DNA of 64,000 bases from Wolfiporia cocos (lineage: Eukaryota > Basidiomycota > Agaricomycetes > Polyporales > Phaeolaceae). The position numbers and the translations under genes are program-made. This document shows positions 3 to 45,462 of the stretch, in pieces. Every line of letters begins with the position of its first letter. The stretch's first letter is position 1. The stretch covers positions 4,712,001-4,776,000 of the forward strand of contig JACCLO010000001.1 in assembly GCA_029448655.1 (NCBI GenBank). The letters are read 5' to 3'. The notes beneath the pieces were generated by a model, which saw only the letters and a list, made by a program, of their open reading frames with translations, was not told where the DNA came from and searched no databases.

Positions 3-3000
3 TACAATAGTGTAAGGGATGCCCTGAATGCTAATGACAATGTTCCAGACCTCAGCCAACAGGGACAGCGGATCATTCTGCCCTCCTCCCATCTGGGAAG
101 TGCACGGCATATGTATCAGCTGCTTCAGGACTCCCTGGCCATTTGTCAATATTGCTGCAAACCTGACATATTCCTCACAATGACGGCCAACCCTACGTGG
201 CCTGAAATACAGGAGGCATTGCTGGAGCTGGATGCTGATGAAGATAATCCTGGGTGGCCACGGAAGAAGCAAACGGCAGCAGACTGCCCTGATATTGTGG
301 CCCATGTGTTCCATCTGAAGCTCCAGGCCTTGATCAAGCTGATCAAGGATGGCTTCTTTGGCGAGCTGGCTGGGGATGTCTACACCATTGAATTTCAGAA
401 GTGAGGGCTGCCTCATGTCCACCTTCTGATTTTTTTCAAAGATCTCTACAAGATCTGAGATGGTGGCCAAGTGGACAACATTGTGTCTGCACAGCTTCCC
501 TGTCAGGAGACCCAGCCAAAGCTCTATGACACGGTCACAAAATGCATGCTCCATGGGCCAAGTGGAGATGATAATCCTCATGCTCCATGCATGGTGGACA
601 GGGCCTGCTCCAAGTGTTATCCAAAGCAATTTTGCGAGGACACCCAGTTTGGAGAGGATGGGTATCCCACCTACACACACCCTGACAATGGCCATTTGCA
701 CGTCAACTCCAGGGGTCACTGCTTTGATAATCGTCATGTTGTTCCCTACAACCCTCACCTCACTGCCATGTTGGACTGCCATATCAATGTGGAGATCTGC
801 ACTTCCATCAGGGCAGTGAAGTACATACATAAGTATATCTACAAGGGGCACAACCATGCCACCTTGGAGGTTGGACAGGTCGACGAGGTAAAACAATACA
901 TTGACGGACGCTACATTGGACCTGTGGAGGCATTTTGGCACATTGCAGAATTTACCATGCATGAGGAAAAGCCTTCTGTATATCGACTGACCATACATCT
1001 CAAGGACGAGCAGATGATGTTCTTTGCCAAGGGAGACAACCCCCATGAAGTTGCTGACCGTCCATCCTCAACAAAGACCCAGCTCACAGAATGGTTCATG
1101 GCAAACCGACATCTTCCAGGGGCAACACAGCATCTGTACCAAGATTTCCCACAGTACTTTGTGTGGGATGCAAGGTCCCGCACCTGGAAGGTCAGGCAAC
1201 GGGACTTTTCAATAGGCAGGATGGCCTTTGTGCACCCTTCAGCCAGTGAAAAGTTCTACCTACGGCTCCTGCTCATGGTGGTGAAGGGTGCCACCTGCTG
1301 GGATGACCTCTACAAGGTCAATGGGGTTGCATACCCAACCTTCAAGGCCACATGCTCTCCCTGTGGACTTCTAGAGGATGATGGGGAGTGGGCACTGTGC
1401 TTGGAGAATGCAGTAGACATGCAGTCAGGATCACAGCTATGCAATCTGTTTGCCATACTCCTCACCCATTGTCATCCTGTGGAGCCTGCCGACCTCTGGA
1501 CCCGGTTCAGTAATCACATTTGTGACGACCTACGACCCCAAGTTGTTGCTTATGGGCATGAGGATCCCACAAATGAACAGGTCTGGGACCTGGGACTGTT
1601 CCTTCTCAATCATATACTGCTCAAGTATGGAAGGCGGCTAACAGACTTTCCACCTATGCCCCTCCCTCAGGCACAATGGGAGCCTCCACATGTAAATCTT
1701 ATCCTTCAAGAGGAACTTGCCTATGATGATGCAGAGCTTGCTGTTGGGGTGGAGGTGGACAGGGAGCGCTTCAATCCAGAGCAGGCAAATGCCTATGATG
1801 TGGTCCTACAATCCGTCCTACAGCAAGAGGGGAGAATATTCTTCCTCCACAGTGCAGGTGGTGGTGGCAAGACATTCACATGTAATGCCATTGCTTCTGC
1901 AGTTCGTATGCATAGAAAGGTGGAACTCTGTGTTGCATCCTCTGGGATTGCATCGTTGCTCCTCATTGGTGGACACACAGCTCATTCTCGCTTCAAAATA
2001 CCCATAGCAGTTCATGAGACTTCGACCTGCCATATCCCCAAGAACAGCAATCTGGCTGATCTCATACGGGAATCAGGGATTGTCATATGGGACGAGGCAC
2101 CCATGCAGCATTGCCATGCCATAGAGGCAGTGGACCGGACCCTCCATGATATCCTGGACAAGGACGTACCATTTGGTGGAATTACCATGCTTTTTGGAGG
2201 CGACTTCCGACAGACACTACCTATGGTTCCCAGAGGCACAAGGGAGCAGATTGTGTCTGCTTCCCTGCGGAGGTCATATCTGTGGAGGCACATTCAGGTC
2301 CTTCATCTTACACAGAACATGCGGCTTGACTGCACACCTGCAAATGATGCTTTTGCACAGTGGTTGCTGAATGTTGGAGCAGGAGACCCTAGGTCTTCCC
2401 AGAACAATGTTTCTCTTCCAGAGAGCATGAGGCTGGCTGACAATACAGTTCAAGGATTGGTGGACACTGTTTATCCTGGCCTTGCTGAAGGAAACAAGTC
2501 CGATCAATACTTCCTCGAACGGACAATTCTGTGTGCCAAGAATGATGCAGTGGCAGAACTCAATGCCTTCATACTGGACAGGTTCCCAGGAGAGGAGGTT
2601 GTGTTGACAGGGTCTGACAAGGTTGTAGGCATAGAGGACGAGCACTATCCTGTTGAATACCTCAACTCGATCACGGTCTCCAGCCTACCCTTGGCTCATT
2701 TATCTCTCAAGCCAGGTTGTCCCCTCATGCTTCTCTGGGACATCGACCCAGCCAATGGCCTCTATAATGGAACACGGATGATTCTGATGTCAATATGACC
2801 CCATGTGCTTCAGTGCCAGATATTAGGAGGAAGCCATGCTGGAAAGGTGGTCTACATCCCCCGTATCACTCTGGAGCCATCTGCCCAAGATCTCCCCATT
2901 TCCATTTCCCATCGGCAATTTCCTGTCCATCTTGCATTTGCCATGACCATCAACAAGTCCCAGGGCCAGTCGGTCATGCATGTGGGATTGGATCAATGTG

Positions 3001-15119: not shown

Positions 15120-16190
15120 GTGGCGGCCTGAAAAACCAGCTACTTTGCAATGGGATGCATACTTGATACTCCCAGAGGCACACCCTGACCCCCAATACAA
15201 GTCAAAGGTCAGGGAACCAGAGGCATTCACTGGTGAAGGGTTCATGGCATGGTACATGTGGCTGAAACTGTACATCGACAATAACGCCCTGCTCCTGTAC
15301 ACTGACTCCAAGAAAGTCGGAGTGGCAATTTCGTTGATCCGCAGTCCCAAGGTCAATGCATGGGTAATGGCATTCATGAGGGAAGGGAACACTACCTTGG
15401 TGGGCAATGGTGACTCAGCTGGCCCCAGTTTGTCTGGGAATTGCATCAAAAGTTTGATGACTCAGACCTGGAGAAAAAGGCAGCGGTAGCAGCAGAAAAG
15501 CTTATAATGCAGGCTGGAAAAGTGGAGGAGTACTTCCAGGAGCTGGAACGCCTCCTTGCTGACACAAAGTATGATTGAGAAAACCAGGTGGTCCATCACT
15601 GGATCACCGTGGCAATCCCCAAGGAGATCTACTTGTTGGTCCATCAGGCATTTGTTGCTGCCACGGTTAACGACAAAATGCAGCGTGGGTATAACGTTCA
15701 AATTCCAGAAGACTACGAGTCCTGGAAACAGGTGATCCTGTGCACAGACAATGCAATGTGTTGGCTCCTGGATGAGGAGAAACTGTGAAGCCACAGGAAG
15801 GAAAAGGTCATGGACAAGGGCAAGGAGCGCACCCGGACAGAGCGCCCTAAAACGGAGCCTATGGAGGAACAGCGGGCCAACCTACTCAAGAGGAAATGCC
15901 ACAGCTGCAGCAAAATGCAAGCTGAGGCCCCCAGCAAAGGTTGCACGAAGTCCCTGTGGCACCAACCAAACTGGCGGCCGCAACAAGTGAACAATGCCCC
16001 TGCCACCAGTGGAACACAGCAAAACTGGCAGGTCACAGATGGGAATGATGCTCCAAAGGTAGGTCCTAAGCGAGATCCCCCAGGAGGACTTTGTCCGAAT
16101 GGTGGCCACCTGGGCCAAGGAGAACTCCAAGGCCACGAAGGAAGCCGGGTTCACCCTTGCACAGGTAAGTCATCCCCATTTGAACAATAA
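15120..16190 (+). pseudogene. gag of the Ty3/gypsy element
   Basis: Capsid-like (Retrotrans_gag type) sequence starts in frame 1: REPEAFTGEG, FMAWYMWLKLYIDNN, VNAWVMAFMREG. Near 15415-15420 it shifts to the next frame and continues as FVWELHQKFDD, VEEYFQELERLL, a TGA at 15576-15578, HHWITVAIPKEIY, and a second TGA at 15786-15788. A basic linker follows. A CHSC...C segment near 15898-15945 could be a degraded zinc knuckle, though its His and last Cys spacing is not canonical. Gag forms the particle that packages the RNA. The copy is inactive. Confidence 0.8.
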
Positions 16191-16579
16191 ATTTTTGGTT
16201 CTTGATGTAGAAGAAGTAAATATTCTCAAACCTGCCATGGAGAATGACAAACCGGTGAATGGACTATATGGGCTAGAGACCAGGGCCCTGATATTATCTA
16301 CTATCTCAGCACATCCTGTAGCATCAGACATAGATGATGATGACGGAGCTTCAACATGCTCCAATGATTTGTTTGTAACAGCCTTGGAGGGGCCTCATAC
16401 CGGAGCTTGGCAGGAGGCAAATACCATACTTAATTCCTCCAATGTCAATGTAACATATGTGTCAATGGATGTAGACCTGGTAGTGACATCAGATGTGGAA
16501 ATGGCAGACGCATCTGATGCCACTAAGAAAAAAGCAGAAAAGAAAGTGTGGTGTAGACGGACCAAGAAAAAGGTCGTCA

Positions 16580-16998
16580 TGCTTGACATCTATCTAGATC
16601 ATTCACAGGCCATACCACCAGAGCAAAAAAGCGAAGGTGCCATGGGCTACGATCTTTATTCTGCTGAGGAGGTACTAGTGCCTCATGGAAAGCACATCAC
16701 CGTGGACACAAGCATCATGATCAGGATGCCACCCGGTGTATACAGGTGCATTGCTCCACAATCCGGACTAGCCCTGAAGGGAGTCAATGTGGAAGGCGGT
16801 GTAGTAGACAAAGACTACACCGGCTGACTAAAAGTCATACTGAATAATCAAACCGGAGCAGATTTTCAGGTCAAGTATGGAGACAGAATCACCCAGTTCA
16901 TACTCGAATGCAATATGACACCAGACACCAGGATCGTCAAGTCAATCCACAAAACCCAGCAAGGGATACAGGGATTCAGCTTGACTGGTGAAAACCTC
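16580..16998 (+). pseudogene. dUTPase domain within pol, upstream of protease
   Basis: The five trimeric dUTPase motifs occur in order: GYDLYSA (about 16645), PQSGLALKG (about 16756), VVDKDYTG (16803-16824), YGDRITQ (about 16876) and QGIQGFSLTG (about 16963). The TGA at 16825 falls directly after motif 3. Known dUTPases hydrolyse dUTP to dUMP and limit uracil in newly made cDNA. Retroelement-borne dUTPases occur in some retroviruses and some fungal gypsy elements. The domain precedes the aspartic protease, whose catalytic triplet is degraded (next entry). Confidence 0.85.
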
Positions 16999-28781: not shown

Positions 28782-29022
28782 TCAGACCCTAGAGTTTCAG
28801 TGCCACAGATGCATCTTTAGAGACACTGCAGATGCATCTGGGGCACTCTAAGTCATCGAATTTAGGCGCCCGTTAGTAATAAAGCATCACAAGCCAGGAG
28901 TCGAACCAGGAACCGCGCGACCTCAGCGGAACAGCGACTGAGACCACTCAGCTAAAGCGGTTGGTGGGAGGGAGATGTTGTGCAAATATATAGTCAGTAG
29001 TTAATATAATAACGGTTGTAAT

Positions 29023-30115
29023 TGTCACAGATTTATCTGGGGCTTACAGCATTTTTCCTACGATTATAGCAATTTACCTGGGATTTATACGTCTAACTAC
29101 AAGTTATCTACGGGTTAACTCCCATTGCCACCACGACAAGCTCCTAACTGGGCTTATCCACCACATGACTAGCTTACGTAACGCTACGGTACAACCACGT
29201 CCAATAGCAACACTACAGCATACGTCATAGGTCTTGCCCGTCAGAGCAAGACCAGCCACGTCATAGATCTTAGATCATAATGATAGGCCGAGCGCGGCAC
29301 GCTCGCATAATAATGTCCACACGTACAAACAGTGCCTCGCGGCCTTGTACTATTGGGTCGGCCTTCCCGGCTTCCCATCGCCATAAGATCCTTGATCACA
29401 ATGGCACCTCAGGCGCGCCACGCCTTCGTATAATAATGGCAACACGGCCAAATAGCACTATATTAGCACCAAGGCAATATCGCTATAGGCTCGGCCTTCT
29501 CGGCCATCCCACGGACTCGGCGTCCTCCAAGCCCCGGGCTTCTGCCATCACGGTGTTGCCCAAACACCGGTCCTCGCCTCACGGCTAAGACCTCCATATG
29601 TTCCGGTAACCATCCGGTCCGGACATATCACATGCTACGGTGCCTGCTGGCCCAATAGCATTACGACCTCGGCGTTCCGCCTTGGTCAGCACACGATGAC
29701 CGGCCAATCGCCATTATACCTCACGGTATCCGGCATCCGGCATCCCTTATACCCGGGCTGCGCCCGTCTTCACATGTCCATCTAACGATGAGACCACACG
29801 CTCTCTCTTTACCATTGGCTCGGCCATTACCGGCGGGTCACGGCCTTTGTAGAGTAGTCGTACCACTTGGTCGCCCTTATGGCAACCAAGCCCACACTCC
29901 TTATCGGGCATGCACTATACAGTAGCACATGACCCGTTATATTTGTGTATATAAGTAGGGCCTTGACGGCCTATAACCTTAGTTCTATTCTTCTCGGCGT
30001 ACGCCGTAGAAGAACCTCCTACCTCCTATTGCGTCTGATAACCTCTTCCTCACCTAAGTCGCCTAGTTCATCGCAGGATACTGGCTTGGTGAGTCCCACA
30101 GAGCCATCTGTGTCA
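29023..30115 (+). repeat. Array LTR 1
   Basis: TGTCACAGATTTATCTGGGG...CATCTGTGTCA, 1093 bp. TATATAAG at 29948-29955 and RNA start word AGTTCTATTCTT at 29981-29992 (33 bp apart). It differs from LTRs 2 and 3 at 29235 (T instead of C), where T completes the hairpin GTCTTGC/GCAAGAC. Confidence 0.92.
29981..30014 (+). promoter_or_regulatory. RNA 5' end of the array element with R/U5 hairpin
   Basis: The inferred start AGTTCTATTCTT is 33 bp after TATATAAG. It overlaps a perfect hairpin: TTCTTC (29988-29993) and GGCGT (29996-30000) pair with ACGCC (30001-30005) and GAAGAA (30009-30014). In Tf1-type elements the RNA 5' end must leave its own fold to pair with the PBS, so this hairpin may compete with or assist priming. 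Confidence 0.7.
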
Positions 30116-30116
30116 T

Positions 30117-30128
30117 AAGAATAGAACT
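30117..30128 (+). other. Self-priming PBS (repeated at 35078-35089 and 40039-40050)
   Basis: AAGAATAGAACT starts one base after the LTR and is the exact reverse complement of the RNA start word at 29981-29992. Twelve of twelve bases match. No tRNA 3'-end complement is needed. Confidence 0.85.
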
Positions 30129-32050
30129 ACCTACCCCCCTGCGCCTCCTTAACTGGTGGCGCCTGGGTTTTTCCTCCAACAGGTGTCTGAGATAGCGCAG
30201 GAGCCGCTGCTCTCCTGCAAAGGGGATGCATGCTCCGTGGTTGCGGTTATGGGATACATCGGCGGCGGGCTTAGCAGCCTGCTGCCACCCAGTGGGGCGC
30301 TGCTTGCCTAATCAGCAGCATGCGTCCTGCGAACCCGGACTCCAGGGTTAAGGAGAGGCGGCCGCTTCCTGACAAGGTTGCGGCTGTCAGCGGTTGAGAC
30401 CCGCCTATTGGGAAAAGGGGACCGTCTGCCTGTGTGCGCGCAGCCCCCTGTCTTGGCAATCCCTGTTCAGGGACCCAACACTACCAGTAGGATCCCCATA
30501 GGGATATGCGCTTCGGCGTATTCCCTTAGTAGGGTGTGGGAATCTTCCAAAGCCGCCCCCCAGGCGTAAGGGGCCCGCTTGGGATCTCCTTCGGGGAATC
30601 CAAGTGGTGAGGTGGTGCGGCTCGCAAGGCCAAACCAGCCGAGGTCACTCGCGGTAGCCAATAGCGTAAGTCCTACGGGCAGCTCGGTGTGCGAGCCTGG
30701 GTTCAACGGATTTGGGGCCCCACCGGAAGCATGCGGCGTTGCCCACCATCTTTGATGTGTGGAGCGCTCGTGAATGCGCGATCTTAGATCGACGGATGGT
30801 TTTTTAGCCCTGATGTGACACCCAGGTGGCTACAGATGGCAAGCCTTACCACTAAAGCGTGGACCGGTCGCGGTGTAATACTGCGACCACTTTCCAGCTC
30901 ATCTCCGCGAGGAAATGGGCTGTGTATCCTATTCCCAACCATGTGACCCAGCCTGTCAAGCGCTGGCAGTCACCGACTCTCTTGCTAGAAGGAAGTCGCG
31001 CGCTTCGAGGAAGACACCTGTCGGCTAAATTCCGCGCGGCGTCCTGACAAGGGCGCCCCTAACCATGCCCCCGTTCTTCTTGTGTTAGACATGACCACTC
31101 AGCATTGATCGCTGATGACGAGCTCTCTTTCAGGTACCCTGGTATCCCAGTTCATAAGTAGATAAATATGTAGTTTTAGTGGCGGCTCCTAGTAGCTTAC
31201 TTACTTTGTAAAGTAGCTTAGAAACCGTCCAATAGCATTTGTATTCGCCTCTGGAAATCCTGCGTCACCTGCTGGTTCCCAGGTTATTTAGCCTGGTTAA
31301 GGTCGCCTATGTACACAAAAGGCAACCTTTACGTCTTACGGGTACACTTAGTCAATCGAAGAACGACACTAGTACCTGTTCCCTTAGACGTAGGATCGCG
31401 TACGCTTGGCAAATATATGCTTACAACTATCATTACTATGGGAATGCCTAAAGTACCAAGTCGATTAGGATTCACATAATCCGTCGGCGCCCGTTTGACT
31501 TCGGTCTTCGCTCCTGAAAAGGGGATTCGGGTTATTGAGCATCTGTCATTTGGTCACATGTCATAAGAACCTTTGAACGGGGGCACCCCTTTCGGTAATG
31601 GAATTCCTGACAAGGAAATTACCATCCGTTTGGGAAGAGACGTCTGACAAGCGTCTATAAATAATTGGGCACAGCGCTGTTTCCACCAGCCACCCACGTA
31701 CAAACAGATCGCAACAAGATTACTTCATTGAATCTTGCAATCTGGGTTAGAGGAAAGGAAAACAAGGGACACACGCTATTGATACGCGTTCCCTTGAAGT
31801 GTAGCGGAAGCCGAAAGGCTTCTAGAATCACACTTCATTCGGCATTCTCGCACAATCGCCGAATTCACAACCGGTTCCAAACCGGTCCCACCCTGTATTG
31901 AAATCGACAATTTCGCACGCCAATCGCAAAATTCGTCACGAGGCTAGCTACCTCACTTTTGATTTCACTTCGATTCAACCTTTCTCTGTGGGGAGAATAA
32001 CCGAATTCGAAAAATACACCTTAGCAACTCAATGCGATCGTCCGCAAAAG

Positions 32051-32101
32051 ATCTCGAAGAAGCACTCGAAAACTTCCAGAGATAACAAGGGAGTCCCCCT
32101 T
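32051..32101 (+). ncRNA. Two-hairpin RNA module, copy A
   Basis: Outer stem ATCTC/GAGAT, inner stem GAAG/CTTC, loop ending CACTCGAAAA, then AACA and a second hairpin AAGGG-agtcc-CCCTT. Copies B and C have the same plan with different stem bases. Confidence 0.7.
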
Positions 32102-33360
32102 ATTAGGACAATCAAGCCGATTTGGCAATCGGTTATCATTTAATTGCTTGGTTTACGGAAACCTGCGTCGTCGAGACACGCAATAAATAATTCCGGATCT
32201 GTATCCTTACGTCAAGAAAGGATTACATCTCGTCACTACATCGAATATGGGCCTGGAAAACCCTTCGATTCCGACAAACTAGGGCCTGGAAACCTTAGTA
32301 TAAAAACCTGGTCGCATATGCGAGCGACTACTGGATACAGCCGTATATGGATATACGTCAAGAATACCTTCGGCCCACATCCACCCACCCTTATCTGGGT
32401 ATAGAGGCGGTTTAACCTCTTTAAAAACCAAAACCATCTGGATAGGTTCGATCGGGAGATCAAACGTGAAAGAGGGGGTGGAAACCCTAATTTCGCACCT
32501 AGGACCTTAAAAAGTCCACTATCCCACGCTTATAAATGTACCTTACGGTCATTAAAGCAACAAACGACATGCACTAAGAGGCCTGATTACCCTCATTCAT
32601 GCTCGTACTGTCCTATTCGTATATGGACGACAACCCTGTAATAGGAATATAGTAGCTATCTATCCAATAGCGAAATATATCCTTCCCCAACGATCATCCC
32701 AGTTCCCACGCTTACAATGTCATACTCAATCGAAGAACGACTTTAACGACATACAAGCACATTGGAAACTACCATCATCGCCACCACGTGACTTCAGCCC
32801 TTACGGGATATACCTATATGAGACAACTCCTGACAAGGATGTATGTTCTCACGGTTACCCAATAAGGCCTCACTACGGCAACGACATTACAGTCTAGGGA
32901 ATACAATCATAAGCATTGACCATAATGCACAATGATTAGTACCTATACTATGGGGTTTTACACGAGAAGCCTACTCGTTAATAAATAGTGCATACAACCA
33001 CGAAGGCACAGCTTCATTCCGGAACTTACGACTCCGAAGAGATCGCTACCTAGAAGCAATCTAACTAGGGGACACAACCCCTGTAACAAATGGGCATTGA
33101 TAAATGTCTCACGCTTAGTACTTGCGATACTAGGGAGGCGACGCCTCATAAACGTTCACAAGGCGACGTCCTTTAATAACCGTTCAACCGCATAAGTCGT
33201 ACAAAGTAGGATTACCCCTGTACAAGCACAAAGCCTAAGACACCCGCCACGCGAATGAAGGAACTTGCAATCCCATTCACCGCTAGGCAATAGACGTCGA
33301 AAAAGCACCGCTATGTTACACTCAATGGGTACTACGCATAAGCAACATATCCGCCCAAGG

Positions 33361-33409
33361 GCTCGAAGAGACACTAGAAAATCTCCAGAGCTAACAGTGA
33401 AGCCCTCAC
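33361..33409 (+). ncRNA. Two-hairpin RNA module, copy B
   Basis: Outer stem GCTC/GAGC, inner stem GAGA/TCTC, loop CACTAGAAAA, linker TAACA, second hairpin GTGA-agccc-TCAC. Confidence 0.7.
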
Positions 33410-33592
33410 TCTAAGGAATATCGCACAATGCTATCCGAAAACTGTACAACGACACAATGCACCCTCTAATACGCCTGGCAAGCTATTGGAGTACAGACTA
33501 CAAGTAGACTCAAAGGCACTATATGTAGACCATTTCCATATCGCCTTCTACTACGAGTAACGTCATAAGCAAAAGCAATAATCCGACAAAGG

Positions 33593-33642
33593 TCGCGAAA
33601 AGGCACTAGAACACCTTCAGCGATAACAGGAAAGCCCATCCT
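33593..33642 (+). ncRNA. Two-hairpin RNA module, copy C
   Basis: Outer stem TCGC/GCGA, inner stem AAGG/CCTT, loop CACTAGAACA, linker TAACA, second hairpin AGGA-aagccca-TCCT. All three copies are preceded by a TCCG...AAG word. Confidence 0.7.
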
Positions 33643-33701
33643 ATCAGGATCCGCGTGCACAATGACAATACACTCTAGTAACACGACTACATCTCCCTAA
33701 C

Positions 33702-33914
33702 AACGGCATTTGACCTTTCGGTCATCACGCGTTGATAATCGCTAGTAACGGCATTTAGCACTTCGCTATCACGCGTTACAAATCACTTTAAGGAATAAAA
33801 TCGCCTTCCACGCTCAGGTTCCACCACAAGTCCTGAAACTCCCATTTATCCCTGTTCAATTGACAAATTGAAGCAGCACCATAACGGCATTTGACACTTC
33901 GTCATCACGCGTTA
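33702..33914 (+). repeat. Three AACG...CGTT hairpins near the 3' end of each unit
   Basis: At 33702-33732, 33746-33778 and 33882-33914. Outer stem AACG/CGTT is constant, as are the inner flanks GCATT and TCACG. The inner stem varies in a compensatory way: TGACC/GGTCA, TAGC/GCTA, TGAC/GTCA, around a short CTTTC/ACTTC loop. Confidence 0.7.
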
Positions 33915-33983
33915 TACCGCTCTTGGGACGTACATAATGAGGAATAGTTTCATCAGGGACGACGAAACCTAAAGCGGGGGTAA

Positions 33984-35076
33984 TGTCACAGATTTATCTG
34001 GGGCTTACAGCATTTTTCCTACGATTATAGCAATTTACCTGGGATTTATACGTCTAACTACAAGTTATCTACGGGTTAACTCCCATTGCCACCACGACAA
34101 GCTCCTAACTGGGCTTATCCACCACATGACTAGCTTACGTAACGCTACGGTACAACCACGTCCAATAGCAACACTACAGCATACGTCATAGGTCTCGCCC
34201 GTCAGAGCAAGACCAGCCACGTCATAGATCTTAGATCATAATGATAGGCCGAGCGCGGCACGCTCGCATAATAATGTCCACACGTACAAACAGTGCCTCG
34301 CGGCCTTGTACTATTGGGTCGGCCTTCCCGGCTTCCCATCGCCATAAGATCCTTGATCACAATGGCACCTCAGGCGCGCCACGCCTTCGTATAATAATGG
34401 CAACACGGCCAAATAGCACTATATTAGCACCAAGGCAATATCGCTATAGGCTCGGCCTTCTCGGCCATCCCACGGACTCGGCGTCCTCCAAGCCCCGGGC
34501 TTCTGCCATCACGGTGTTGCCCAAACACCGGTCCTCGCCTCACGGCTAAGACCTCCATATGTTCCGGTAACCATCCGGTCCGGACATATCACATGCTACG
34601 GTGCCTGCTGGCCCAATAGCATTACGACCTCGGCGTTCCGCCTTGGTCAGCACACGATGACCGGCCAATCGCCATTATACCTCACGGTATCCGGCATCCG
34701 GCATCCCTTATACCCGGGCTGCGCCCGTCTTCACATGTCCATCTAACGATGAGACCACACGCTCTCTCTTTACCATTGGCTCGGCCATTACCGGCGGGTC
34801 ACGGCCTTTGTAGAGTAGTCGTACCACTTGGTCGCCCTTATGGCAACCAAGCCCACACTCCTTATCGGGCATGCACTATACAGTAGCACATGACCCGTTA
34901 TATTTGTGTATATAAGTAGGGCCTTGACGGCCTATAACCTTAGTTCTATTCTTCTCGGCGTACGCCGTAGAAGAACCTCCTACCTCCTATTGCGTCTGAT
35001 AACCTCTTCCTCACCTAAGTCGCCTAGTTCATCGCAGGATACTGGCTTGGTGAGTCCCACAGAGCCATCTGTGTCA
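33984..35076 (+). repeat. Array LTR 2
   Basis: Offset of exactly 4961 bp from LTR 1. Preceded by AAAGCGGGGG (33971-33980). TATATAAG at 34909-34916. It would act as both the 3' LTR of unit 1 and the 5' LTR of unit 2. Confidence 0.92.
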
Positions 35077-38000
35077 TAAGAATAGAACTACCTACCCCCC
35101 TGCGCCTCCTTAACTGGTGGCGCCTGGGTTTTTCCTCCAACAGGTGTCTGAGATAGCGCAGGAGCCGCTGCTCTCCTGCAAAGGGGATGCATGCTCCGTG
35201 GTTGCGGTTATGGGATACATCGGCGGCGGGCTTAGCAGCCTGCTGCCACCCAGTGGGGCGCTGCTTGCCTAATCAGCAGCATGCGTCCTGCGAACCCGGA
35301 CTCCAGGGTTAAGGAGAGGCGGCCGCTTCCTGACAAGGTTGCGGCTGTCAGCGGTTGAGACCCGCCTATTGGGAAAAGGGGACCGTCTGCCTGTGTGCGC
35401 GCAGCCCCCTGTCTTGGCAATCCCTGTTCAGGGACCCAACACTACCAGTAGGATCCCCATAGGGATATGCGCTTCGGCGTATTCCCTTAGTAGGGTGTGG
35501 GAATCTTCCAAAGCCGCCCCCCAGGCGTAAGGGGCCCGCTTGGGATCTCCTTCGGGGAATCCAAGTGGTGAGGTGGTGCGGCTCGCAAGGCCAAACCAGC
35601 CGAGGTCACTCGCGGTAGCCAATAGCGTAAGTCCTACGGGCAGCTCGGTGTGCGAGCCTGGGTTCAACGGATTTGGGGCCCCACCGGAAGCATGCGGCGT
35701 TGCCCACCATCTTTGATGTGTGGAGCGCTCGTGAATGCGCGATCTTAGATCGACGGATGGTTTTTTAGCCCTGATGTGACACCCAGGTGGCTACAGATGG
35801 CAAGCCTTACCACTAAAGCGTGGACCGGTCGCGGTGTAATACTGCGACCACTTTCCAGCTCATCTCCGCGAGGAAATGGGCTGTGTATCCTATTCCCAAC
35901 CATGTGACCCAGCCTGTCAAGCGCTGGCAGTCACCGACTCTCTTGCTAGAAGGAAGTCGCGCGCTTCGAGGAAGACACCTGTCGGCTAAATTCCGCGCGG
36001 CGTCCTGACAAGGGCGCCCCTAACCATGCCCCCGTTCTTCTTGTGTTAGACATGACCACTCAGCATTGATCGCTGATGACGAGCTCTCTTTCAGGTACCC
36101 TGGTATCCCAGTTCATAAGTAGATAAATATGTAGTTTTAGTGGCGGCTCCTAGTAGCTTACTTACTTTGTAAAGTAGCTTAGAAACCGTCCAATAGCATT
36201 TGTATTCGCCTCTGGAAATCCTGCGTCACCTGCTGGTTCCCAGGTTATTTAGCCTGGTTAAGGTCGCCTATGTACACAAAAGGCAACCTTTACGTCTTAC
36301 GGGTACACTTAGTCAATCGAAGAACGACACTAGTACCTGTTCCCTTAGACGTAGGATCGCGTACGCTTGGCAAATATATGCTTACAACTATCATTACTAT
36401 GGGAATGCCTAAAGTACCAAGTCGATTAGGATTCACATAATCCGTCGGCGCCCGTTTGACTTCGGTCTTCGCTCCTGAAAAGGGGATTCGGGTTATTGAG
36501 CATCTGTCATTTGGTCACATGTCATAAGAACCTTTGAACGGGGGCACCCCTTTCGGTAATGGAATTCCTGACAAGGAAATTACCATCCGTTTGGGAAGAG
36601 ACGTCTGACAAGCGTCTATAAATAATTGGGCACAGCGCTGTTTCCACCAGCCACCCACGTACAAACAGATCGCAACAAGATTACTTCATTGAATCTTGCA
36701 ATCTGGGTTAGAGGAAAGGAAAACAAGGGACACACGCTATTGATACGCGTTCCCTTGAAGTGTAGCGGAAGCCGAAAGGCTTCTAGAATCACACTTCATT
36801 CGGCATTCTCGCACAATCGCCGAATTCACAACCGGTTCCAAACCGGTCCCACCCTGTATTGAAATCGACAATTTCGCACGCCAATCGCAAAATTCGTCAC
36901 GAGGCTAGCTACCTCACTTTTGATTTCACTTCGATTCAACCTTTCTCTGTGGGGAGAATAACCGAATTCGAAAAATACACCTTAGCAACTCAATGCGATC
37001 GTCCGCAAAAGATCTCGAAGAAGCACTCGAAAACTTCCAGAGATAACAAGGGAGTCCCCCTTATTAGGACAATCAAGCCGATTTGGCAATCGGTTATCAT
37101 TTAATTGCTTGGTTTACGGAAACCTGCGTCGTCGAGACACGCAATAAATAATTCCGGATCTGTATCCTTACGTCAAGAAAGGATTACATCTCGTCACTAC
37201 ATCGAATATGGGCCTGGAAAACCCTTCGATTCCGACAAACTAGGGCCTGGAAACCTTAGTATAAAAACCTGGTCGCATATGCGAGCGACTACTGGATACA
37301 GCCGTATATGGATATACGTCAAGAATACCTTCGGCCCACATCCACCCACCCTTATCTGGGTATAGAGGCGGTTTAACCTCTTTAAAAACCAAAACCATCT
37401 GGATAGGTTCGATCGGGAGATCAAACGTGAAAGAGGGGGTGGAAACCCTAATTTCGCACCTAGGACCTTAAAAAGTCCACTATCCCACGCTTATAAATGT
37501 ACCTTACGGTCATTAAAGCAACAAACGACATGCACTAAGAGGCCTGATTACCCTCATTCATGCTCGTACTGTCCTATTCGTATATGGACGACAACCCTGT
37601 AATAGGAATATAGTAGCTATCTATCCAATAGCGAAATATATCCTTCCCCAACGATCATCCCAGTTCCCACGCTTACAATGTCATACTCAATCGAAGAACG
37701 ACTTTAACGACATACAAGCACATTGGAAACTACCATCATCGCCACCACGTGACTTCAGCCCTTACGGGATATACCTATATGAGACAACTCCTGACAAGGA
37801 TGTATGTTCTCACGGTTACCCAATAAGGCCTCACTACGGCAACGACATTACAGTCTAGGGAATACAATCATAAGCATTGACCATAATGCACAATGATTAG
37901 TACCTATACTATGGGGTTTTACACGAGAAGCCTACTCGTTAATAAATAGTGCATACAACCACGAAGGCACAGCTTCATTCCGGAACTTACGACTCCGAAG

Positions 38001-38944
38001 AGATCGCTACCTAGAAGCAATCTAACTAGGGGACACAACCCCTGTAACAAATGGGCATTGATAAATGTCTCACGCTTAGTACTTGCGATACTAGGGAGGC
38101 GACGCCTCATAAACGTTCACAAGGCGACGTCCTTTAATAACCGTTCAACCGCATAAGTCGTACAAAGTAGGATTACCCCTGTACAAGCACAAAGCCTAAG
38201 ACACCCGCCACGCGAATGAAGGAACTTGCAATCCCATTCACCGCTAGGCAATAGACGTCGAAAAAGCACCGCTATGTTACACTCAATGGGTACTACGCAT
38301 AAGCAACATATCCGCCCAAGGGCTCGAAGAGACACTAGAAAATCTCCAGAGCTAACAGTGAAGCCCTCACTCTAAGGAATATCGCACAATGCTATCCGAA
38401 AACTGTACAACGACACAATGCACCCTCTAATACGCCTGGCAAGCTATTGGAGTACAGACTACAAGTAGACTCAAAGGCACTATATGTAGACCATTTCCAT
38501 ATCGCCTTCTACTACGAGTAACGTCATAAGCAAAAGCAATAATCCGACAAAGGTCGCGAAAAGGCACTAGAACACCTTCAGCGATAACAGGAAAGCCCAT
38601 CCTATCAGGATCCGCGTGCACAATGACAATACACTCTAGTAACACGACTACATCTCCCTAACAACGGCATTTGACCTTTCGGTCATCACGCGTTGATAAT
38701 CGCTAGTAACGGCATTTAGCACTTCGCTATCACGCGTTACAAATCACTTTAAGGAATAAAATCGCCTTCCACGCTCAGGTTCCACCACAAGTCCTGAAAC
38801 TCCCATTTATCCCTGTTCAATTGACAAATTGAAGCAGCACCATAACGGCATTTGACACTTCGTCATCACGCGTTATACCGCTCTTGGGACGTACATAATG
38901 AGGAATAGTTTCATCAGGGACGACGAAACCTAAAGCGGGGGTAA
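35077..38944 (+). ncRNA. Non-coding internal region, unit 2
   Basis: The frames and sequence blocks I compared with 30116-33983 are identical, including all hairpin families and the PBS. Confidence 0.65.
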
Positions 38945-40037
38945 TGTCACAGATTTATCTGGGGCTTACAGCATTTTTCCTACGATTATAGCAATTTACC
39001 TGGGATTTATACGTCTAACTACAAGTTATCTACGGGTTAACTCCCATTGCCACCACGACAAGCTCCTAACTGGGCTTATCCACCACATGACTAGCTTACG
39101 TAACGCTACGGTACAACCACGTCCAATAGCAACACTACAGCATACGTCATAGGTCTCGCCCGTCAGAGCAAGACCAGCCACGTCATAGATCTTAGATCAT
39201 AATGATAGGCCGAGCGCGGCACGCTCGCATAATAATGTCCACACGTACAAACAGTGCCTCGCGGCCTTGTACTATTGGGTCGGCCTTCCCGGCTTCCCAT
39301 CGCCATAAGATCCTTGATCACAATGGCACCTCAGGCGCGCCACGCCTTCGTATAATAATGGCAACACGGCCAAATAGCACTATATTAGCACCAAGGCAAT
39401 ATCGCTATAGGCTCGGCCTTCTCGGCCATCCCACGGACTCGGCGTCCTCCAAGCCCCGGGCTTCTGCCATCACGGTGTTGCCCAAACACCGGTCCTCGCC
39501 TCACGGCTAAGACCTCCATATGTTCCGGTAACCATCCGGTCCGGACATATCACATGCTACGGTGCCTGCTGGCCCAATAGCATTACGACCTCGGCGTTCC
39601 GCCTTGGTCAGCACACGATGACCGGCCAATCGCCATTATACCTCACGGTATCCGGCATCCGGCATCCCTTATACCCGGGCTGCGCCCGTCTTCACATGTC
39701 CATCTAACGATGAGACCACACGCTCTCTCTTTACCATTGGCTCGGCCATTACCGGCGGGTCACGGCCTTTGTAGAGTAGTCGTACCACTTGGTCGCCCTT
39801 ATGGCAACCAAGCCCACACTCCTTATCGGGCATGCACTATACAGTAGCACATGACCCGTTATATTTGTGTATATAAGTAGGGCCTTGACGGCCTATAACC
39901 TTAGTTCTATTCTTCTCGGCGTACGCCGTAGAAGAACCTCCTACCTCCTATTGCGTCTGATAACCTCTTCCTCACCTAAGTCGCCTAGTTCATCGCAGGA
40001 TACTGGCTTGGTGAGTCCCACAGAGCCATCTGTGTCA
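38945..40037 (+). repeat. Array LTR 3
   Basis: Offset of exactly 4961 bp from LTR 2 and identical where compared. TATATAAG at 39870-39877. Confidence 0.92.
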
Positions 40038-43000
40038 TAAGAATAGAACTACCTACCCCCCTGCGCCTCCTTAACTGGTGGCGCCTGGGTTTTTCCTCCA
40101 ACAGGTGTCTGAGATAGCGCAGGAGCCGCTGCTCTCCTGCAAAGGGGATGCATGCTCCGTGGTTGCGGTTATGGGATACATCGGCGGCGGGCTTAGCAGC
40201 CTGCTGCCACCCAGTGGGGCGCTGCTTGCCTAATCAGCAGCATGCGTCCTGCGAACCCGGACTCCAGGGTTAAGGAGAGGCGGCCGCTTCCTGACAAGGT
40301 TGCGGCTGTCAGCGGTTGAGACCCGCCTATTGGGAAAAGGGGACCGTCTGCCTGTGTGCGCGCAGCCCCCTGTCTTGGCAATCCCTGTTCAGGGACCCAA
40401 CACTACCAGTAGGATCCCCATAGGGATATGCGCTTCGGCGTATTCCCTTAGTAGGGTGTGGGAATCTTCCAAAGCCGCCCCCCAGGCGTAAGGGGCCCGC
40501 TTGGGATCTCCTTCGGGGAATCCAAGTGGTGAGGTGGTGCGGCTCGCAAGGCCAAACCAGCCGAGGTCACTCGCGGTAGCCAATAGCGTAAGTCCTACGG
40601 GCAGCTCGGTGTGCGAGCCTGGGTTCAACGGATTTGGGGCCCCACCGGAAGCATGCGGCGTTGCCCACCATCTTTGATGTGTGGAGCGCTCGTGAATGCG
40701 CGATCTTAGATCGACGGATGGTTTTTTAGCCCTGATGTGACACCCAGGTGGCTACAGATGGCAAGCCTTACCACTAAAGCGTGGACCGGTCGCGGTGTAA
40801 TACTGCGACCACTTTCCAGCTCATCTCCGCGAGGAAATGGGCTGTGTATCCTATTCCCAACCATGTGACCCAGCCTGTCAAGCGCTGGCAGTCACCGACT
40901 CTCTTGCTAGAAGGAAGTCGCGCGCTTCGAGGAAGACACCTGTCGGCTAAATTCCGCGCGGCGTCCTGACAAGGGCGCCCCTAACCATGCCCCCGTTCTT
41001 CTTGTGTTAGACATGACCACTCAGCATTGATCGCTGATGACGAGCTCTCTTTCAGGTACCCTGGTATCCCAGTTCATAAGTAGATAAATATGTAGTTTTA
41101 GTGGCGGCTCCTAGTAGCTTACTTACTTTGTAAAGTAGCTTAGAAACCGTCCAATAGCATTTGTATTCGCCTCTGGAAATCCTGCGTCACCTGCTGGTTC
41201 CCAGGTTATTTAGCCTGGTTAAGGTCGCCTATGTACACAAAAGGCAACCTTTACGTCTTACGGGTACACTTAGTCAATCGAAGAACGACACTAGTACCTG
41301 TTCCCTTAGACGTAGGATCGCGTACGCTTGGCAAATATATGCTTACAACTATCATTACTATGGGAATGCCTAAAGTACCAAGTCGATTAGGATTCACATA
41401 ATCCGTCGGCGCCCGTTTGACTTCGGTCTTCGCTCCTGAAAAGGGGATTCGGGTTATTGAGCATCTGTCATTTGGTCACATGTCATAAGAACCTTTGAAC
41501 GGGGGCACCCCTTTCGGTAATGGAATTCCTGACAAGGAAATTACCATCCGTTTGGGAAGAGACGTCTGACAAGCGTCTATAAATAATTGGGCACAGCGCT
41601 GTTTCCACCAGCCACCCACGTACAAACAGATCGCAACAAGATTACTTCATTGAATCTTGCAATCTGGGTTAGAGGAAAGGAAAACAAGGGACACACGCTA
41701 TTGATACGCGTTCCCTTGAAGTGTAGCGGAAGCCGAAAGGCTTCTAGAATCACACTTCATTCGGCATTCTCGCACAATCGCCGAATTCACAACCGGTTCC
41801 AAACCGGTCCCACCCTGTATTGAAATCGACAATTTCGCACGCCAATCGCAAAATTCGTCACGAGGCTAGCTACCTCACTTTTGATTTCACTTCGATTCAA
41901 CCTTTCTCTGTGGGGAGAATAACCGAATTCGAAAAATACACCTTAGCAACTCAATGCGATCGTCCGCAAAAGATCTCGAAGAAGCACTCGAAAACTTCCA
42001 GAGATAACAAGGGAGTCCCCCTTATTAGGACAATCAAGCCGATTTGGCAATCGGTTATCATTTAATTGCTTGGTTTACGGAAACCTGCGTCGTCGAGACA
42101 CGCTAATAAATAATTCCGGATCTGTATCCTTACGTCAAGAAAGGATTACATCTCGTCACTACATCGAATATGGGCCTGGAAAACCCTTCGATTCCGACAA
42201 ACTAGGGCCTGGAAACCTTAGTATAAAAATCCTGGTCGCATATGCGAGCGACTACTGGATACAGCCGTATATGGATATACGTCAAGAATACCTTCGGCCC
42301 ACATCCACCCACCCTTATCTGGGTATAGAGGCGGTTTAACCTCTTTAAAAACCAAAACCATCTGGATAGGTTCGATCGGGAGATCAAACGTGAAAGAGGG
42401 GGTGGAAACCCTAATTTCGCACCTAGGACCTTAAAAAGTCCACTATCCCACGCTTATAAATGTACCTTACGGTCATTAAAGCAACAAACGACATGCACTA
42501 AGAGGCCTGATTACCCTCATTCATGCTCGTACTGTCCTATTCGTATATGGACGACAACCCTGTAATAGGAATATAGTAGCTATCTATCCAATAGCGAAAT
42601 ATATCCTTCCCCAACGATCATCCCAGTTCCCACGCTTACAATGTCATACTCAATCGAAGAACGACTTTAACGACATACAAGCACATTGGAAACTACCGTC
42701 ATCGCCACCACGGGACTTCAGCCCTTACGGGATATACCTATACGAGACAACTCCTGACAAGGATGTATGTTCTCACGGTTACCCAATAAGGCCTCACTAC
42801 GGCAACGACACTACACTATTAGGGAATACAATCATAAGCATATAAACATAATGCACAATGATTAGTACCTATACTATGGGGTTTTACACGAGAAGCCTAC
42901 TCGTTAATAAATAAAGTGCATACAACCACGAAGGCACAGCTTCATTCCGGAACTTACGACTCCGAAGAGATCGCTACTTAGAAGCAATCTAACTAGGGGA

Positions 43001-43917
43001 CACAACCCCTGTAACAAATGGGCATTGACAAATGTCTCACGCTTAGTACTTGCGATACTAGGGAGGCGACGCCTCTTAAACGTTCATAAGGCGACGCCCT
43101 TTAACAACCGTTCAACCGCATAAGTCGTACAAAGTAGGATTACCCCTGTACAAGCACAAAGCCTAAGACACCCGCCACGCGAATGAAGGAACTTGCAATC
43201 CCATTCACCGCTAGGCAATAGACGTCGAAAAAGCACCGCTATGTTACACTCAATGGGTACTACGCATAAGCAACATATCCGCCCAAGGGCTCGAAGAGAC
43301 ACTAGAAAATCTCCAGAGCTAACAGTGAAGCCCTCACTCTAAGGAATATCGCACAATGCTATCCGAAAAACTGTACAACGACACAATGCACCCTCTAATA
43401 CGCTTGGCAAGCTATTGGAGTACAGATTACAAGTAGACTTCAAAGGCACTATATGAGGAACATTTCCATATCGCCTTCTACTACGAGTAACGTCATAAGC
43501 AAAAGCAACAATCCGACAAAGGTCGCGAAAAGGCACTAGAACACCTTCAGCGATAACAGGAGAGTCCCATCCTCTTAGGATCCGCAGTGCACAATGACAA
43601 GCACACTCTATTAACACGACTACATCTCCCTAACAACGGCATTTGACCTTTCGGTCATCACGCGTTGATAATCGCTAGTAACGGCATTTAGCACTTCGCT
43701 ATCACGCGTTACAAATCACTATAAGGAATAAAATCGCCTTCCACGCTCAGGTTCCACCACAAGTCCTGAAACTCCCATTTATCCCTGTTCAATTGACAAA
43801 TTGAAGCAGCACCATAACGGCATTTGACACTTCGTCATCACGCGTTATACCGCTCTTGGGACGTACACTAATGAGGAATAGTTTCATCAGGGACGATGAA
43901 ACCTAAAGCGGGGGTAA
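40038..43917 (+). ncRNA. Non-coding internal region, unit 3, mosaic
   Basis: Identical to units 1 and 2 up to about 42100. The first difference I see is CACGCTAATAAAT for CACGCAATAAAT near 42102. From there to the end it carries scattered substitutions and small indels (net +12 bp). The hairpin families are still present in the diverged part. Confidence 0.65.
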
Positions 43918-45011
43918 TGTCACAGATTTATCTGGGGCTTACAGCATTTTTCCTACGATTATAGCAATTTACCTGGGATTTATACGTCTAACTACAAGTT
44001 ATCTACGGGTTAACTCCCATTGCCACCACGACAAGCTCTTAACTGGGCTTATCACCACATGACCAGCATACATAACGCTACGGCACCTTCCGGTCCAATA
44101 GCATAGTTACAGCATACGTCATAAGGTCTCGCCCGTCAGAGCAAGACCAGCCACGTCATAGATCGTAGATCATAATGATAGGCCGAGCGCGGCACGCTCG
44201 CATAATAATGTCCACATGTACAAACAGTGCCTCGCGGCCTTGTACTATTGGGTCGGCCTTCCCGGCTTCCCACCGCCATAAGATCCTTGATCACAATGGC
44301 ACCTCAGGCGCGCCACGCCTTCGCATAATAATGGCAACACGGCCAAATAGCACTATATTAGCATCAAGGCAATATCGCTATAGGCTCGGCCTTCTCGGCC
44401 ATCTCACGGACTCGGCGTTCCTCCAAGTCCCGGGCTTCTGCCATCACGGCGCTGCCCAAACACCGGTCCTCGCCTCACGGCTAAGACCAATACATGTTCC
44501 GGTAACCATCCGGTCCGGACATATCACATGCTACGGTGCCTGCTGGCCCAATAGCATTACGACCTCGGCGTTCCGCCTTGGTCAGCACACGATGACCGGC
44601 CAATCGCCATTATACCTCACGGTATCCGGCATCCGGCATCCCTTATACCCGGGCTGCGCCCGTCTTCACATGTCCATCTAACGATGAGACCACACGCTCT
44701 CTCTTTACCATTGGCTCGGCCATTACCGGCGGGTCACGGCCTTTGTAGAGTAGTCGTACCACTTGGTCGCCCTTATGGCAACCAAGCCCACACTCCTTAT
44801 CGGGCATGCACTATACAGTAGCACATGACCCGTTATATTTGTGTATATAAGTAGGGCCTTGACGGCCTATAACCTTAGTTCTATTCTTCTCGGCGTACGC
44901 CGTAGAAGAACCTCCTACCTCCTATTGCGTCTGATAACCTCTTCCTCACCTAAGTCGCCTAGTTCATCGCAGGATACTGGCTTGGTGAGTCCCACAGAGC
45001 CATCTGTGTCA
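43918..45011 (+). repeat. Array LTR 4, diverged
   Basis: Same ends and promoter (TATATAAG at 44844-44851) but many differences from LTR 1, clustered in 44030-44460 (for example ACGGCACCTTCCGG where LTR 1 has ACGGTACAACCACG). Followed by TSD GTAAT. Confidence 0.9.
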
Positions 45012-45462
45012 GTAATAAAATTTAACATTCTGCTCATATGTCAGTAAGCTCATTAAATTGACCTCAGAATGCATCTCTTTATTGATGTATCCCACAACCC
45101 ATATGTATCTGCAATGAGGTAAGGATGCTGTCATAAATTACCTTCAGGGCAATATGGAACATTCCACTAAGGTGTGACTTGACAATCAACAGCTACGGCG
45201 ATGAAAGTACATTAAATGGATCATATTAACGAGTATGTGACTTGGATACAAAGACCATTTGGCAAAGTGGTACAGGTTGCGACTTCGCTGGTCCCAGGTC
45301 AAGTGTTCGAACCCCACACAGGTATTTCTTGCGCAGATGCATCTTATTTCATTCAGATGCATCTATGCAGCACGCTTGGGCGTTAATGTTGCTTAGAGTG
45401 CCCCAGATGCATCTGCGGTGTCTCTAAAGATGCATCTCCGGCACTGAAGTCCCTCTCAGACC

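Follow-up and report, generated by a model that had tools for sequence, protein, structure and literature searches.

A covarying three-way-junction RNA module repeated within a non-coding LTR retrotransposon of Wolfiporia cocos

We analysed 64,000 nucleotides of the Wolfiporia cocos genome (GenBank assembly GCA_029448655.1, contig JACCLO010000001.1, positions 4,712,001 to 4,776,000; referred to here as the window) and find that it contains a 15,989-bp tandem long terminal repeat (LTR) retrotransposon at 29023-45011, arranged as LTR-internal-LTR-internal-LTR-internal-LTR and repeating every 4,961 bp, in which each unit carries three copies of an RNA module whose stems differ in sequence and continue to pair. 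A preliminary description of the window had drawn attention to three copies in the first unit, at 32051-32101, 33361-33409 and 33593-33642, with shared loops and linkers, and these are present as placed; the nine stems named there pair perfectly, with all 38 base pairs as written being Watson-Crick. Beyond this we identify the host of the modules as a non-coding LTR retrotransposon, recognise a further stem that encloses the two hairpins of each module, and observe similar behaviour across much of the 3.9-kb internal region. Because units 1 and 2 differ at only one of 4,961 bases, the tandem units do not constitute independent evidence.

The module had been described as a pair of hairpins, and both hairpins are indeed present; the unit is nonetheless larger, as both sit inside a short stem (GTCC/GGAC in copy 1), which makes it a three-way junction. 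From an alignment of eight distinct versions, the enclosing stem P0 has 4 pairs, hairpin 1 consists of P1 (5 pairs), a small internal loop, P2 (4 pairs) and a 10-nt loop, and hairpin 2 consists of P3 (5 pairs) closed by the loop AGCCC or AGTCC. The nine occurrences in the window are as follows.

32040-32109, + strand: module 1, with P0 at 32040-32043/32106-32109, hairpin 1 at 32051-32083 and hairpin 2 at 32087-32101
33349-33418, + strand: module 2, three-way junction
33581-33650, + strand: module 3, three-way junction
37001-37070, + strand: module 1 of unit 2, model match
38310-38379, + strand: module 2 of unit 2, model match
38542-38611, + strand: module 3 of unit 2, model match
41962-42031, + strand: module 1 of unit 3, model match
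43277-43346, + strand: module 2 of unit 3, model match
43511-43581, + strand: module 3 of unit 3, model match, with a variant second hairpin

In copy 3 of the first unit, the fifth pair of hairpin 2 is A-A, which leaves it with 4 pairs and a loop of 7 nt; the other two module 3 versions in the alignment are paired at this position. When single copies are folded, hairpin 1 forms in all three, and hairpin 2 forms as drawn only in copy 1; in copies 2 and 3 an alternative pairing outcompetes hairpin 2, which is restored by the alignment of versions together with RNAalifold. RNAalifold recovers the same 18 module pairs unprompted.

The preliminary description took the module to be an RNA structure maintained by selection, as judged by covariation, and this interpretation is supported. 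Across the eight versions 97.9% of the 144 cells pair, compared with 78.6% in shuffles, and 13 of the 18 pairs have changed on both sides; neither value is reached in any of 500 shuffles, and sliding the partner by 1-3 columns reduces pairing to 34.0-46.5% of cells. Overall, four of five measures exceed every shuffle (n=500), the fifth, the number of further pair types, not being above them (18 versus 18.2). Two of the four P0 pairs show compensated changes. Invariant columns are more frequent among unpaired positions (21/34) than paired ones (9/36; Fisher p 0.0034), with the p value being only a guide given that the eight versions are related. A covariance model finds the nine modules in the window, three sites in each of three tandem units, at 88.9-99.1 bits, with the next best match at 13.2 bits. 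Building such a model had been proposed as a check, and one made from modules 2 and 3 only recovers the unseen module 1 in the window (78.3 bits) and in two other copies from the same genome, L061 (75.3 bits) and L042 (71.9 bits), with E values of about 1e-21 to 1e-23 and the next match at 13.9 bits.

The preliminary description had named a lack of further covarying homologues as one point that would count against its interpretation; such homologues exist in other subfamilies of the same genome, where wholly or partly new compensated stems are joined to nearly unchanged loops. In module 1 of subfamily B, AGGA/TCCT stands in place of GAAG/CTTC, CTTC/GAAG in place of TCTC/GAGA, and AGATG/CATCT in place of AAGGG/CCCTT. 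Module 2 exists with two P3 alleles, AGTGA/TCACT and AGAAG/CTTCT. A genome search that excluded the known stems yielded one extra version (C35:42854, stem CGGA/TCCG, 4/4 paired), which is convincing only by its module context, as the reversed-pattern control gave two matches; a second such pattern and its control gave none.

Covariation is not confined to the modules. The internal region of the first unit is located as follows.

30116-33983, + strand: internal region of unit 1, 3,868 bp, non-coding and predicted from compensated pairs and frame comparison to encode a structured RNA

We predicted the structure from one copy and scored it on another, with a pair cut-off of 0.5 that applies to helix counts as well. 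Of the 20 copies fetched from the genome, L045 (truncated) was excluded from the internal alignment and L044 was kept in spite of its truncation. Comparing the window with L042, to which it is 86% identical, there are 54 compensated, 35 half-changed and 65 broken pairs, whereas the null gives 6.7 compensated (maximum 17) and 143.7 broken (minimum 128); with shuffling inside 120-nt bins the null mean rises to 11.7 compensated pairs and its maximum to 22. Pairing is kept in 54 of the 61 doubly changed pairs, compared with at most 5 of 31 when slid by 1-3 columns. Against L061 there are 24 compensated pairs, relative to a null maximum of 10 and a local null maximum of 18. By helix, 36 of 150 contain a compensated pair, 11 contain at least two, and 2 have at least half of their pairs broken, these being plain counts that have no null. 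All four quarters of the internal region exceed the null maximum, the second narrowly (7 versus 6), and U3 does so in four of four comparisons (11-13 versus maxima of 6-9); R-U5 together with the start of the internal region gives 3-4 compensated pairs against null maxima of 5-6, which is not significant. Five other repeat pairs in the window, each scored in both directions, never exceed the null maximum in ten comparisons (the nearest being 8 versus 9 and 10 versus 11), with less power since these controls are short, at 31-169 pairs each. These data indicate that the 3.9-kb internal RNA, as modelled from its sequence, retains many helices while its letters change.

Other parts of the unit are also repeated. 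Ten-letter words recur 60 times in the unit, compared with 13.4 (maximum 28) in shuffles, and two other 5-kb stretches are not above theirs. Two further hairpin families are present.

30357-30388, + strand: hairpin with a UGACAA loop, the first of five per unit, with CTGACAAG at 30369, 31044, 31607, 31644 and 32830
33702-33914, + strand: three ACGGCATTT...ATCACGCGT hairpins with a changing inner stem, starting at 33702, 33747 and 33883

The hairpins with the UGACAA loop are not all constant across subfamilies, the second having a different loop in four non-A copies (L039, L042, L060 and L061). The segment at about 32580-33240 is the most constant among 22 copies, with 0.87-1.0 of positions near-invariant in 60-nt bins, and its variation is too low for the fold test. 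(The 22-row analyses, which comprise the wobble-pair, substitution, constancy and frame comparisons, omit the third window unit as a near-duplicate.)

The remaining features of the element are those of an LTR retrotransposon.

29018-29022, no strand: target site duplication GTAAT, 5' copy, present on either flank of the array
45012-45016, no strand: target site duplication GTAAT, 3' copy
29023-30115, + strand: LTR 1, TGTCACAGA...TCTGTGTCA
33984-35076, + strand: LTR 2
38945-40037, + strand: LTR 3
43918-45011, + strand: LTR 4, 97.4-97.5% identical to LTRs 1-3
29948-29955, + strand: TATA-like box TATATAAG in LTR 1, a putative promoter element
29980-29992, + strand: presumed RNA start and self-primer TAGTTCTATTCTT, whose 13 nt are exactly reverse-complementary to the primer site
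30117-30129, + strand: primer-binding site AAGAATAGAACTA for putative self-priming, just behind LTR 1 and complementary to TAGTTCTATTCTT at 13/13 nt
33976-33983, + strand: polypurine tract GGGGGTAA before LTR 2

Target duplications of 5 bp are present in all ten of the other copies in which they were read (10 of the 20 fetched), the border of L041 having been moved by one base so that its duplication is TCACT. LTRs 1-3 are 99.9-100% alike, and the divergence of LTR 4 from them indicates that the array did not originate by simple duplication of one element.

We found no retrotransposon open reading frame in the element. There is no open reading frame of at least 200 aa within 29023-45011, the longest stop-to-stop frame in the unit is 120 codons, and on the + strand no ATG frame of at least 35 aa with the same ends is common to more than 14 of 22 copies; a protein-coding interpretation was therefore rejected. 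On the - strand of the internal region, taken as a control, one 63-aa ATG frame is common to 19 of the 22 copies. The preliminary description knew of no family matching the module, and consistent with this, Rfam gives no match in the 64-kb window at the gathering threshold or over 29000-35100 at E values up to 1, with neither a hammerhead nor any other Rfam ribozyme being detected. A tRNA identity was rejected as none was found, and a virus origin was likewise rejected, as a single scan of IMG/VR with a module pattern gave no matches. Elsewhere in the window, a 779-aa open frame at 459-2798 (+ strand) resembles a Helitron helicase as judged by reading.

The element fits the class of large retrotransposon derivatives (LARDs) as a non-autonomous, self-primed member: it has LTRs and a target duplication, a long internal domain that lacks retrotransposon proteins, and a retained primer-binding site and polypurine tract, and the compensated pairs provide the conserved RNA secondary structure, albeit in a strand-neutral manner. 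LARDs were reportedly first described in the Triticeae, and the LTRs of barley LARDs are said to be roughly 4.4 kb, compared with about 1.1 kb here. The window element differs from plant LARDs in having a fungal host and in being apparently self-primed, and its structure rests on compensated changes and repeated modules. Its 3,868-bp internal region sets it apart from TRIMs, which are very short elements with little internal domain. The LARD class is described in PMC7215508, which also describes Cassandra/TRIM arrays as non-coding LTR elements whose LTRs are common to adjoining units, as here; TRIMs are small and Cassandra carries a 5S sequence, in contrast to the 3.9-kb internal region of the window element. 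Laccaria bicolor LARDs (PMC3411680) are also fungal, one having recent intact copies, and the phrase 'secondary structure' is absent from that paper's main text. Retrozymes (PMC4918200) are likewise non-autonomous LTR elements carrying RNA structure; the hammerhead ribozyme that marks them is not found in the window element by Rfam.

The replication mode is predicted to be self-priming. As in Tf1/sushi-like elements, the RNA 5' end, at its presumed position, is complementary to the site behind the LTR at 13 of 13 nt, and in subfamily B self-primer and primer site have changed jointly (TTCTATTAT with ATAATAGAA). Self-priming of this kind resembles that of Tf1. Being self-primed and lacking a Gag-Pol coding region, the element behaves like a Tf1/sushi-like Gypsy, yet is not an autonomous member of that group. 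Self-priming as a general mechanism is treated in PMC2864245.

The genome has two hydrophobin matches above the cut-off, against none in 14 control genomes, as befits a fungus. The primer-site pattern has 204 matches in it at up to 3 mismatches and none for the reversed-pattern control; the first 30 matches listed are all exact, and all 30 when fetched belong to the same family. Among several contigs numbered C21 to C55, many have 2-3 primer sites at intervals of about 4,960 bp, and their contig positions are often similar, which could reflect either long arrays or repeated pieces of the assembly. Of the 20 fetched copies, 17 had their two LTRs compared: 11 show complete identity across 1,076 nt and the remainder are 99.1-99.9% identical. 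The copies differ from the window copy by about 3-14%. Near-identical LTR pairs indicate recent insertion, so that decay does not account for the differences between subfamilies, which arose while the lineages were replicating.

We propose that selection maintains the transcript as a folded RNA presenting repeated protein-binding sites. The constant loops and joints would be recognised by a trans-acting protein, with several copies per RNA raising binding, and the likeliest binder would be the Gag protein of a dUTPase-bearing Tf1/sushi-like Gypsy resident in this genome; packaging and reverse transcription of the element RNA would then fall to that Gypsy. The fold itself is supported by the covariation seen in the sequences, and a protein-binding role is what we infer from it. 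Taken as a whole, an explanation in which the modules belong to the folded, probably protein-binding RNA of a self-primed LARD-type element seems to us likely; that the RNA is folded and under selection is very probable, and the role in Gag packaging is tentative, with somewhat less than an even chance.

A candidate for the autonomous partner is L059, one fetched Gypsy copy with a 2,285-aa open frame containing dUTPase, reverse transcriptase, RNase H, integrase zinc-binding, protease and Tf2-1-like SH3 domains, and an integrase core match below the Pfam cut-off. We take it to be a self-primed Ty3/Gypsy element of the Tf1/sushi kind. Like the window element it has TGTCACA...TGTGTCA ends, GGGGGTAA before the LTR, a self-primer within the LTR, and a primer site complementary to the LTR following it; the junction GGGGGTAATGTCACA is common to both, with 1,037 genomic occurrences and none for the control. 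Unlike the window element, L059 encodes a polyprotein and has an LTR of 373 bp. An element of the L059 type could mobilise the window element, as judged from these shared sequences; L059 is one copy of one family, and there may be a closer partner. A 254-aa open frame at 16063-16827 (+ strand) in the window appears, by reading, to be the dUTPase part of a decayed Gypsy akin to L059.

Several observations weigh against the proposed explanation. Compensation is weaker relative to L061, where pairing persists in 24 of 34 doubly changed pairs (no more than 7 of 22 when slid), and every copy compared comes from the single genome searched, of 64.4 Mb. Local folding energy is only mildly low, with + strand internal bins having a mean z of -0.65 to -1.23, compared with -0.76 for the flank and -1.78 for the LTR. 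Pfam names no capsid or Gag domain in L059, and neither the two module models nor the five motif strings (CTGACAAG, TGACAA, CCAATAGC, ACGGCATTT and ATCACGCGT) are found in it, seven-letter loop words alone being present (ACTAGAA twice and ACTCGAA once). Finally, if selection acted only on the + strand RNA, G-U states created by one-sided changes should persist longer than A-C states, and no such preference is seen for shared states over all helices with three reference copies (G-U versus A-C: 16 versus 18, 18 versus 16, and 19 versus 25); in helices with compensation the counts are 9 versus 5, 5 versus 5, and 6 versus 4. Strand-specific selection on the RNA is thus not independently proven. 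A mutation bias towards A-C may mask a G-U preference: rare changes at paired sites lean towards A-C (59 G>A plus T>C, 33 C>T plus A>G) and shared changes do not (41 and 45; Fisher p 0.034), a contrast that weakly hints at selection. Rare substitutions at paired sites are strand-asymmetric on the element + strand (T>C 31, A>G 11), consistent with its A- and C-rich composition.

One alternative is that the RNA is a device for interacting with the host, binding or titrating host RNA-binding or silencing proteins, or governing the export or stability of an untranslated RNA. Repeated near-identical loops would suit multivalent binding of this kind too, and the absence of the module models and motif strings from L059, the one candidate partner examined, is in its favour; as spread would still require packaging and reverse transcription, and nothing points to a host partner, we regard this as unlikely. 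It is also conceivable that the RNA need only be physically compact, with the modules being incidental. Compensation across the whole internal region and in U3 would be expected if this were so, whereas folding energies little below those of shuffled sequence, and module letters that are held more tightly when unpaired than in stems, make a purely physical structure quite improbable.

To a third possibility, the copying of hairpin arms, we assign a similarly low probability. Here template switching during reverse transcription or replication would copy one stem arm onto its partner, giving perfect stems with no selection for a fold; in PMC8794818 template switching is proposed for rRNA genes and microRNAs and can yield compensated stems in a single step, and its authors consider the evidence that it maintains short stems to be circumstantial. 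In its favour, the pairing seen here is Watson-Crick and strand-neutral, wobble pairs not being preferred, and in L061, P2 of module 2 (the inner stem of hairpin 1) equals that of module 3, which suggests conversion between modules. However, copying leaves unexplained why unpaired letters are held across three diverged modules, the enclosing stem is compensated as well, 4-bp stems changed in all four pairs would offer scant homology to anchor a switch, and the five other repeat pairs in the window, short as they are, show no excess over the null maximum. Template switching may nevertheless contribute to the double changes. Coincidental pairing of repeated low-complexity hairpins, or an artefact of alignment, has a negligible chance of accounting for the data in spite of the shortness of individual stems and the one module measure that lies within the shuffles, given the other four measures, the slide controls, the out-of-sample model match and the replication in other subfamilies.

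New here are the evidence from covariation, the module and its repetition, and a self-primer that covaries with its site; among the literature matches listed, at the level of titles and opening lines of abstracts and with few subscription journals covered, none describes compensated RNA structure for a fungal LARD. The findings bear on the old question of why non-coding retrotransposons retain kilobases of internal sequence, to which an answer can now be tested, namely that the sequence is held for its RNA fold. The repeated three-way junction is a small, defined RNA suitable for probing and as bait for a partner, and the element contributes a further large structured RNA that Rfam does not match. 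GOLLD, ROOL and OLE (PMC12286853) are also long, elaborately folded non-coding RNAs; they are bacterial and belong to no retrotransposon. A bolder and more doubtful proposal is that the RNA is the sole product and phenotype of the element, an ornate RNA of about 5 kb that would parasitise the Gypsy particle through many binding sites provided by at least three repeated hairpin families with mostly constant loops. If this is true, the ornate RNAs of bacteria would have a eukaryotic counterpart carried by a transposon.
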